DNA from: Candidatus Terasakiella magnetica
Lineage (GTDB): Bacteria > Pseudomonadota > Alphaproteobacteria > Rhodospirillales > Terasakiellaceae
NCBI RefSeq assembly: GCF_900093605.1
Contig: NZ_FLYE01000034.1
Location: forward strand, 124,001-188,000
Length of the DNA stretch: 64,000 nucleotides
Direction of reading: 5' to 3'
The notes below the pieces were generated by a model, which was given only the letters and a program-made list of their open reading frames with translations, ran no database searches and had not been told where the DNA came from. A program made the position numbers and the translations under genes. Below, one piece after another: positions 56,699 through 60,157 of this stretch (position 1 is its first letter; each line of letters starts with the position of its first letter).

Positions 56699-57085
56699 AT
56701 GTTTTTAAAACCAAAAAAAGCCATTGTACGGCGCAATCGCAACATCCATGCTGATATTAAAGGCACAGGCGAGCTTGATTTGCGCGGCAATGTTGAAGGC
56801 GATATTGAAGTAGATAACCTTGTAATCGGCAAAAAAGGCTGCGTTAAAGGCACTGTAGTTGCCGAAACCGTGCGCATCATGGGGTTTGTTAAAGGTAACA
56901 TTCAGGCCCGCGAAGTGATTATTGAAAAGAGCGCCCATATTGAAGGCGAACTTTCATATGAGCAGCTTACTGTAGCCCCACATGCTGATTTAGTGGCGAA
57001 ACTCACACCGCGCCCTTTGTTGAAACTCTGGAAAGATCGCAAACCTGTTGAGGAAGTTCTTGAAGGATTGCGCGCTGTCGCCTAA
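56699..57085 (+). CDS. Bactofilin-type polymer-forming protein
   Basis: 128 residues. A bactofilin (DUF583) core of right-handed beta-helix repeats (IKGTGELDLRGNVEGDIEVDNL, VKGTVVAETVRIMGFVKG, IQAREVIIEKSAHIEGELSYE) with short basic ends. Polymerises without nucleotide and anchors cell-wall or motility proteins. Single gene between the chemoreceptor and the 270-bp element. Confidence 0.88.
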   Translation: MFLKPKKAIVRRNRNIHADIKGTGELDLRGNVEGDIEVDNLVIGKKGCVKGTVVAETVRIMGFVKGNIQAREVIIEKSAHIEGELSYEQLTVAPHADLVAKLTPRPLLKLWKDRKPVEEVLEGLRAVA

Positions 57086-57118
57086 CGCTTTTTCTTAAAG
57101 ATTTAGACTTTTAAAACT

Positions 57119-57387
57119 AGGGCATAAACTCATAAAATAGAATTGTTTGGCGGAGATTACTTTAAGGATGGGTTAGGCATGAAATCCACAGAAGTGCGAG
57201 CACTTTAAGGATTTTATAACGCGGCCCATCCTTAAAGTAATCCCGTCCCTTTAGGGATTTATCAAAAATATAGGCAAATACAGCGTCAAAGCCTTTTGAA
57301 AGTACAAGTACTTCCTGCAAACCTTTTCCTTGTCTTGCCTATATTTTTGATAAACCAAAGCAAGTCTATTTTATGAGTTTATGCCCT
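57119..57387. mobile_element. MITE-like 269-bp element with cloverleaf inverted repeats, flanked by TA
   Basis: Terminal inverted repeats are perfect over 23 bp (57119-57141 and 57365-57387). Inside are two more perfect arms: 18 bp (57155-57172 with 57225-57242) and 20 bp (57258-57277 with 57335-57354). Without their outermost A/T the ends are GGGCATAAACTC / GAGTTTATGCCC, each flanked by TA. No reading frame of note is inside. Ends and TA flanks fit a non-autonomous IS630/mariner- or IS427-type element. Confidence 0.7.
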
Positions 57388-57410
57388 AATCTTGATGCGT
57401 CTTGAAAACT

Positions 57411-58202
57411 CTATGTGGTTTTCGGGCGCATTTTTTGTTGGAACAGAGAAAATGCCAGCAAGTAAACCGTTGCGGCCCCAAAGGAGGCCAATGTTCCCCA
57501 CAGCAGGCCAAGGCTTTCCAGATAAAGCGCATAGACAATCCCAAAACTGACCATCGCACCTAATCCATTGGGAAAATGCTTGATAATGCTCAGCACTGGC
57601 GCGGGACCATAGGTGAAATGAATGATCACCACCATGGGAAAGACGGTGGAGGGGAAGCTCGCCATCACACCCGCCATTTGTGGACCCATGATATTGGCAA
57701 GCCCGGTGATGGAGAGCACCACAAAACAGGCCATAGCCGCGCGCACAAAAGTCACCCAAAAACCCAAACGCACAGCGCGATGAATTTTCATTTCAGCAAA
57801 GCGTTTAAAAGAAAAGATGCAAATGGCAATGACAATAATGATGAAAACAACCGCAGAAATAAGATCAAAATCAATATAGCTCAACCCCAGCCCCACTATC
57901 ATAAAGGATAGAAGCGATAAAAGGGCTGCAAGCCAGACCGGGCATTTCGGACGCAGACTGATCACAAGGCCATATGTTGCAAAAACAGACAGGTTGGCAC
58001 AAAGCCCTGCAAGGGTATGTACCATGCTTTGGGCCGCAAAGCTGGCCCCTTCTTCATAGCTGATAAAAACCAACACAATGGCAATGCCAAGGGGATAGCC
58101 CCCAAGCAGGCCTGCCACGCGCGGGCTGACACGCTCGGCAATTACAGAAAGCCCCAGCACAATGGTAATGGTCACGCAGATTTTAATAAGGATCAAGCTC
58201 AT
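57411..58202 (-). CDS. Integral membrane protein of unknown function
   Basis: 263 residues from the ATG at 58202 (frame open to a TTG at 58238). Eight or so hydrophobic segments in two similar halves. Recognisable parts are ERVSPRVAGLLGGYPLGIAIVLVF, IVGLGLSYID and GPQMAGVMASFPSTVFPMVV: GG-P / ASFPST loops in both halves could be pore loops, as in some two-repeat carriers. I cannot name a family. Cut off on its 3' side from the bactofilin gene by the MITE-like element. Confidence 0.65.
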   Translation of the reverse strand: MSLILIKICVTITIVLGLSVIAERVSPRVAGLLGGYPLGIAIVLVFISYEEGASFAAQSMVHTLAGLCANLSVFATYGLVISLRPKCPVWLAALLSLLSFMIVGLGLSYIDFDLISAVVFIIIVIAICIFSFKRFAEMKIHRAVRLGFWVTFVRAAMACFVVLSITGLANIMGPQMAGVMASFPSTVFPMVVIIHFTYGPAPVLSIIKHFPNGLGAMVSFGIVYALYLESLGLLWGTLASFGAATVYLLAFSLFQQKMRPKTT

Positions 58203-58256
58203 GGACGCATCTTTGCCAGTTATCACAGGTTTTGACAATTGCGCATTAGTGGGTAG

Positions 58257-58757: not shown

Positions 58758-60157
58758 CACGATGCCCTCCATAAATATAACGCCCCATAAGCCCGCCAAG
58801 GCCGCCAGTTTTGTGCGCGCTCTTTTAAATCTGCCTTGGTGCAAGGTTGCCCCAGCTTTTCAAGACCGCGCAGCAACGCCAGATCATCCACCGGATAAAT
58901 ATCGGGCTCTCCAAAACTACGCATGACAATATAATGCGCTGTCCACGGCCCAATACCGGGCAGCGCACACAGCTCTTTTAACGTTTCTTCAACAGGCTTT
59001 GCCTTATCAAGGCCACACCAGTTTTCAGACAGTTTTTTTAAGGTGGTGATACGTCGCCCCGTCAGGCCCAATCCATCCAAATCAGCATTCATTATCTCAT
59101 CAGCAGTGGGAAATAGCCCCGTGCCAATGCGCTCGACCAGACGATTACATATGGTGCGCGCGCCCTTAACGCTGATTTGCTGACCAATAATGGCGCGCAC
59201 GGCAATTTCAAACCCATCCCACGCACCGGGCAGGCGCAAACCGGGATGCGCTTTCACCAAAGGCATTAAGACAGGGTCGTGGCTTAGATCATGGGCAATC
59301 CCAACCGGATCGGCATCCACATCAAACAGGCGGCGGATTTTACGCGACACGGTCTTTAAATGGGCGGTGGGGATATCTTTAATCACGGCCTTAAGACGGT
59401 TCTTCTTTTCATCACAACTCACCCTAAGGGAGCCTTTATGACCCTCAATACAAATGAGGCGCTCATAAGATGTCATGCTCACCGTTTCAATCTCATCAAG
59501 GGCGCGCTCTTTAAAAAAGCTAAGCAAGCCGTCCCAATCATAAGGTGGGCGGAAATTAAAATGCAGCACGGTTTCTTGGGTGTTGGTTTCTTCACTTTTG
59601 TTTTTACGCTCATGACTTGGCGCAAAACCAAAGGCGGTTTTATAGGCATCGTTAAAACGCCGCAGGCTGTTAAAGCCCGAGCCCAAGGCAATCTCAGTAA
59701 TAGGCGCTTTGGTTTGGACCAGGAGTTTCTTGGCAAACATCAAACGCCGTGTCTGGGCAATTTGTTTGGGGGAGGCCCCAAGATGGCTTTGAAACAGGCG
59801 GCGCAAGTGACGCTCCCCAATGCCAAGGCGCGCACAAAGCTCGCTTAAAGACTGCCCGTCATCTAACGCGCCATCTTCGATTAAGCGCAAGGCGCGGCGC
59901 ACGGTGGCTTCAGTGCCCAACCACGCCGGGCTTGCCGGGGCACTTTCGGGGCGACAGCGCAAACAGGGGCGAAACCCCGCATTGATCGCGGCACTGGCTG
60001 AAGGATAAAAGGTGCAATTTTCCGGCTTTGGCGTACTGGCAGGGCAGATCGGGCGACAGAAAATTCCCGTTGAAGAAACCCCTGTAAAAAACCGTCCATC
60101 AAAACGGGCATCGCGCGTCTTTAAGGCCTGATAGCATATGTCATGTTCTAAATTCAT
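58757..60157 (-). CDS. alkA: Ada-AlkA fusion: alkylation response regulator / 3-methyladenine glycosylase
   Basis: 466 residues from the ATG at 60157. Residues 1-75: Ada zinc domain with the four cysteines in FCRPIC ... [11 protein letters not shown], one of which accepts methyl groups from phosphotriesters. About 85-185: AraC-type HTH ([28 protein letters not shown]). About 195-466: AlkA N-domain and HhH-GPD glycosylase with [14 protein letters not shown] and a catalytic Asp in [16 protein letters not shown]. So sensing, regulation and base excision sit in one chain, with ogt next to it. No ribosome site is visible; TATACT lies 10-15 bases before the start, so the message may be leaderless. 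Confidence 0.92.

Follow-up and report, generated by a model that had tools for sequence, protein, structure and literature searches.

A 267-bp mobile DNA element with apparently IS5-type ends and two inverted hairpins whose predicted fold recurs across Pseudomonadota

The element between the bactofilin-like and membrane-protein genes

The element examined here lies in a 64,000-nucleotide stretch of Candidatus Terasakiella magnetica DNA (assembly GCF_900093605.1, contig NZ_FLYE01000034.1, positions 124,001 to 188,000 of the forward strand), hereafter the window, in which all coordinates are given unless stated otherwise. It separates a bactofilin-like gene from a convergent membrane-protein gene, both labels being those of an earlier note made from the sequence alone and not tested here. 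The features of the locus are as follows.

56699-57085 (+): bactofilin-like gene, a neighbour and not part of the element, with orthologues at 71-85% identity in five congeners
57118-57119: TA target duplication, left (target cTAa)
57120-57145 (+): left terminal inverted repeat, A type (GGGCATAAACTCATAAAATAG..)
57152-57245 (+): beta arm, a hairpin read on the + strand, with outer stem 57155-57172/57225-57242 and purine loop A57175.G57221, G57176-C57220, G57177.A57219, C57178.A57218
57246-57257: short central hairpin, TCCC-TTTA-GGGA, between the arms
57258-57354 (-): alpha arm, an inverted relative of the beta arm read on the - strand, with outer stem 57258-57277/57335-57354 and loop G57329-C57285, G57328.A57286, A57327.G57287
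57361-57386 (-): right terminal inverted repeat
57387-57388: TA target duplication, right
57411-58238 (-): convergent membrane-protein gene, a neighbour

The earlier note described a 269-bp cloverleaf MITE-like element flanked by TA, with a 23-bp perfect terminal inverted repeat (TIR), two perfect inner stems of 18 and 20 bp and no transposase frame, and this description is confirmed. The element proper is 57120-57386 (267 bp), the interval 57119-57387 given in the note taking in one base of each TA. Its ends pair over 36 nucleotides at 89% and are perfect over the outer 23 bases including the A of TA (23 of 24 when TIR-bounded elements were extracted). Both inner stems, of 18 and 20 bp, are perfect, and the short central hairpin is an addition to the three-arm structure of the note. 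When folded as single-stranded DNA, the element reached -80.5 kcal/mol, compared with -25.5 ± 4.1 kcal/mol in 200 shuffles (z -13.3), none of which was as good. No frame of 80 amino acids or more lies wholly inside, although one antisense frame runs 8-9 bases into the right end.

Copies, target sites and partner transposons

To establish whether the element is dispersed, copies were sought in its own genome and in relatives. The own genome holds four copies at 91-100% identity with the same ends (A type), of which the window copy is one, and five with the same core but other ends (B type, GGGTCAGGACC) at 76-77% identity over the core. A BLAST search matched 5 of 60 genomes, own included; of the congeners G001 to G005, G005 has 11 A-type copies that match at least 267 of 269 positions, G004 has one and G001-G003 have none. 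One-arm (161-182 bp), arm-less (about 56-61 bp) and 398-bp forms occur in the own genome or in relatives. The 398-bp versions (loci L079 and L098 of genome G071) are about 130 bp longer than the standard element, and the fold of L079 shows an extra hairpin, whereas two arm-less copies consisting of end repeats only (about 60 bp) lie some 1.4 kb apart in G005 (locus L308, 428-489 and 1878-1939). Of 53 TIR-bounded elements extracted, 42 have TA on both sides, and of these 42, 40 have Y before and 42 have R after the TA, corresponding to the YTAR target of IS5.

The same gene pair was found without the element in four congeners. The gap, measured to the end of the tblastn match, is about 69, 50, 54 and 48 bp in G005, G001, G002 and G003, respectively, compared with 325 bp in the window, and the joined flanks of the window element leave about 60 bp. 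In G004, only the first gene was matched.

The note had named an IS630- or IS427-type transposase with matching ends as evidence that would support mobility. In G001, a stretch of about 850 bp (L307) has A-type ends (GGCCGTAAACTCATAAAAT) and two overlapping frames that match DUF4096 (PF13340, 9.2e-29) and DDE_Tnp_1 (PF01609, 4.9e-18). A second locus in G001, L082, has B-type ends and frames with the same domains (PF13340, 2.1e-21; PF01609, 1.1e-12). These are IS5-family transposons, and an IS630 partner, the other candidate of the note, is not needed. No intact partner was seen among the end matches in the own genome, so that present mobility there is unproven, and movement in trans was not assayed. 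The outcomes that the note had set down as arguing against mobility, namely a unique element conserved in place or the absence of other copies and related IS ends, did not occur. Its interpretation of a MITE-like mobile element is therefore supported. Its aside that the element could fold as RNA gains support from the strand-specific mismatch pattern described below, although the RNA-seq coverage that it proposed was not examined; what it could not see is that the inner structure recurs across the phylum behind changing ends.

Distribution and conserved structure of the two-armed core

The core was aligned for 16 nonredundant elements (alignment A2), retained from an order-level set of 42 after near-identical elements were dropped; one locus, L114, had been left out of the set after its alignment was inspected. 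Of the 59 consensus pairs in A2, 49 show a kept two-sided change. A covariance model of this core (R1), which excludes the terminal repeats but for six bases at its right edge, matched 115 of 297 genomes of the order (52 of 111 genera; E <= 0.001), 33 of 385 of a class sample and 50 of 398 of a phylum sample (both at E <= 1e-4), with the own genome included in each. Of the 50, 5 are of the own order, 15 of other orders of the class and 30 of other classes. Most listed matches run over all 205 positions in about 195-213 bases, but at most 6-8 candidates per genome were scored in the large searches, so that copy numbers are lower bounds, and the shortest phylum matches (about 105-120 nt, E near 5e-5) may be chance. 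R1 matches true elements on both strands, since the arms are inverted relatives.

The flanks of 121 elements, nine of them from the own order, were read out. Inverted repeats of 12/16 or better were formed in 109 of 121, compared with 26 of 363 mismatched flank pairs, and TA at both ends followed by 10/12 identical bases was observed in 66 of 121, compared with 5 of 363. The end types differ widely (TAGGGTCTG, TAGGGTCCG, TAGGAGCCT, TAGAGCGGT, TATACCCAA and others). Blastn placed two of these elements: relatives of L196 lie on Azotobacter (2) and Pseudomonas (1) plasmids at 75-76% identity, and relatives of L189 on two Vibrio plasmids at 68-72%. A plasmid search with the window element itself gave no match. 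In the own genome, a third end type (C, GAGCCTG..CATAAG) with the same two arms was found with the arm model at two further places (C46, 11164-11232, and C12, 277571-277639; loci L317 and L318). Its left ends follow TA (TA-A-GAGCC), whereas its right ends do not show TA. Thus, one genome carries one payload behind three sets of ends.

Both arms, beta on + and alpha on -, share one plan: outer stem, loop, G-C pair, tandem non-Watson-Crick pairs, inner stem of about 7-9 bp, second loop and terminal hairpin. The purine loop consists of A.G, G-C, G.A and then A.G or C.A. Of 217 parsed arms, 196 are 68-70 nt as trimmed. Of 96 nonredundant arms, 60 were taken as references and 56 were aligned (alignment A6), the L248, L280, L009 and L236 arms being left out by eye. 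In A6, 82.6% of cells pair, compared with 51.4% in shuffles and at most 43.6% in slid structures, and the covariation score is 0.770, compared with 0.217 in shuffles and at most 0.204 when slid. Given that the G-C pair and the listed loop forms were selection criteria for A6, their constancy there proves nothing; by contrast, the A before the loop (56 of 56) and the facing G (49 of 56) were not used to pick arms. The unselected count was made with Watson-Crick-only folds, in which 235 of 326 arms gave a 2x2 loop. Of 225 unique ones, 87 are GA/GA, 52 are GC/AA and 86 have neither main form, and no mixed form is among the 14 commonest, so the loop changes state on both sides together. Folds with G-U allowed gave the same loop forms. 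An arm model (R2) finds the two window arms on opposite strands, at 57165-57232 on + (43.1 bits, E 4e-10) and 57340-57272 on - (27.4 bits, E 1.7e-5); the next window match, at 59880-59936 on + (15.5 bits, E 0.054), falls within a listed open frame and is probably chance.

If the arms only had to be palindromic DNA, G.T and A.C mismatches should be equally common. The RNA reading was initially doubted because an alignment-based count, restricted to pairs common to the folds of both strands, was nearly symmetric (beta 10:6, alpha 9:11). The count was repeated with folds that forbid G-U, using the end repeats as control. Here, isolated mismatches inside helices of the 121 elements, counted as unique contexts, gave 46 G.T to 45 A.C in the terminal repeats, 50 to 15 in beta (p 1.6e-5) and 16 to 40 in alpha read on + (p 0.0018), i.e. 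40:16 on its own strand. Four loci (L217, L233, L279 and L176) that failed a split were retained in this count, in the loop count and in the flank comparison. Each arm thus prefers G.T on its own motif strand, and a bias of the model for G-U could not do this, as it would favour G.T on + in both arms. In the 42 order-level elements, however, the beta arm is only 9:2 (p 0.065) and the alpha arm does not follow the rule, with 8 G.T and 5 A.C unique contexts read on + (17:5 raw); the nearly even alignment-based count also stands against the rule. A count on A6 (102 G.T, 31 A.C) is not used as proof, because its arms were picked with G-U folding allowed.

No Rfam 15 family matches the elements of the window or of 30 other loci; two matches above gathering score (cobalamin in L091 and tRNA in L049) lie outside the elements, and miRNA-like hits were far below it. 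With regard to genomic context, 53 elements lie between convergent, 69 between tandem and 37 between divergent genes, and 4 are too near a locus end; as these are crude ORF calls without a baseline, only the orientation count among tandem gene pairs is used, which shows no preference (36:33). On a P. aeruginosa plasmid, the match begins about 5 bases after the end of one gene and ends about 30 before the start of the next, both in the same direction.

Interpretation as a transposon with a structured payload

These data are best explained, with moderate confidence, by a non-autonomous IS5-type (IS427-like) transposon with an orientation-independent RNA-type payload. In this view, the ends would be cut and joined at YTAR sites by an IS5-family transposase supplied in trans; the ends, targets, copies and sites without the element were observed, but the movement itself is inferred. 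The inside would be a selected payload of two ~69-nt hairpins, related to each other and placed head to head, that outlives exchanges of the terminal repeats and so occurs with many end types through Pseudomonadota. The anatomy shows that every transcript through the element, in either orientation, holds one sense arm. That each arm behaves like a nucleic acid folded on one particular strand, most simply as RNA in a read-through transcript, is inferred from the tolerance of G.T over A.C. RNA fits best, but G.T is also tolerated better than A.C in single-stranded DNA, so the strand bias does not prove RNA; no transcription data were examined, and stems can be kept perfect by template-switch repair without selection.

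The function of the hairpin is inferred and not shown. The best guess, although one of low confidence, is that it makes the insertion harmless to the transcription unit it lands in by being recognised in the nascent transcript. Inserts such as that on the P. aeruginosa plasmid must not be polar. Recognition by RNA polymerase in the manner of phage HK022 put RNA, which suppresses termination by binding the polymerase, would be one concrete form. HK022 put RNA has non-canonical pairs G43-A64 and C44-A63 next to G42-U65 (PMC9378689). In the HK022 record, this is 5'-GGCG-3'/5'-CAAU-3' (GGCG/CAAT as DNA) in putL, and putR aligns with the same letters, corresponding to the GC/AA form of the arm loop. 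However, put RNA has two different stem-loops and no outer loop, and R2 gave no match up to E 10 at putL (L316, 4238-4313, -), so the likeness is a small shared submotif that may be chance and is a lead rather than a membership; antitermination by the arm was not assayed. A broader reading, also regarded as unlikely, is of a phylum-wide class of structured RNA, mounted as an inverted pair inside IS5-type miniature transposons, that changes its terminal repeats over time and acts in the nascent transcript, by put-like polarity suppression or another RNA-protein contact, so that insertions in either orientation are tolerated.

Three other explanations are each considered unlikely. The element could be an ordinary MITE, an IS5-derived deletion product whose inner stems are a functionless by-product kept perfect by template switching at palindromes (quasipalindrome correction). 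The near-perfect stems within a copy, the one-arm and arm-less forms, and the end repeats, which also change on both sides together as a DNA-level effect, are consistent with this. By contrast, arm length and unpaired loop bases are conserved across the phylum while helices change, the GA/GA and GC/AA loop states change together although not Watson-Crick paired, and G.T/A.C is strand-asymmetric in the arms but not in the ends. Alternatively, the arms could be a transcript-processing element, cut by RNase III or unmasking RNase E sites and so tuning neighbouring mRNAs, with loop bases as nuclease or protein anchors. Such activity is reported for Correia and ERIC elements (PMC10969869), and long perfect stems would be present in any read-through transcript, but RNase III needs no conserved purine loop of this kind, and processing was not tested. 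Least likely is a DNA-level device in which the arms are read as single-stranded hairpins, one strand each, by a host or transposon protein during replication or transfer, as attC sites or REP/TnpAREP hairpins are: although the element is multi-copy mobile DNA without a shown transcript and ssDNA would give the same G.T bias, IS5-family transposition has no known ssDNA step and the end repeats show no strand bias, with no recombinase having been looked for beside the copies.

Among known systems, bacterial MITEs such as Correia, ERIC and Chunjie are likewise short, with TIRs, target duplication, no ORF, trans-mobilisation and stable stems (PMC10969869); here, an inner two-arm fold recurs across a phylum while the ends differ. 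The element is thus a MITE by the features tested, with a conserved inner structure that the MITE idea does not explain. The GTAG-type tetranucleotide and TnpAREP gene of REP/REPIN were not sought, and the end repeats and TA duplication speak for a DDE element instead. MRSC motifs of a 50-genome ncRNA survey (PMC11109978) are also multi-copy structured repeats with covariation, sometimes near a transposase gene. The one it describes, MRSC-65-2, is a single long stem with a UYCCGG repeat and differs; the rest of its 250 mobile/repeat candidates (its table 1) were not compared. The IStron, a group I intron inside an IS (PMC4227781), is a transposon carrying an RNA that makes insertion harmless, whereas the present element has a hairpin pair and no intron. 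Text searches with two end strings returned a paper on startle behaviour for GGGTCAGGACC and, for AGGGTCTGTTG, papers including one on a bacterial toxin-antitoxin system, and no listing showed this element, which, for open-licence text alone (PMC6429828 and PMC2864571 were also consulted), is not proof that it is unpublished. Bacterial MITEs are usually seen as deletion products of local insertion sequences. Here, a non-coding payload keeps its shape across Pseudomonadota while its ends change, so something seems to select the fold. If it acts as RNA, it is a selfish element that solves the orientation problem by carrying its signal twice, inverted, and many intergenic regions would hold an unannotated structured RNA amenable to study in ordinary laboratory species.

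In one genome, G044, many contigs (e.g. C69, C74 and C88) end about 55 bases from a GGGTCAGGACC end, pointing to a high-copy IS or element there. In G005 (locus L288) and G004 (locus L291), remnants of B-type ends (TTAGGGTCAGGACC) sit in the gap after the bactofilin stop, downstream of the same gene where the window has its A-type element, so the site seems to have been hit more than once.
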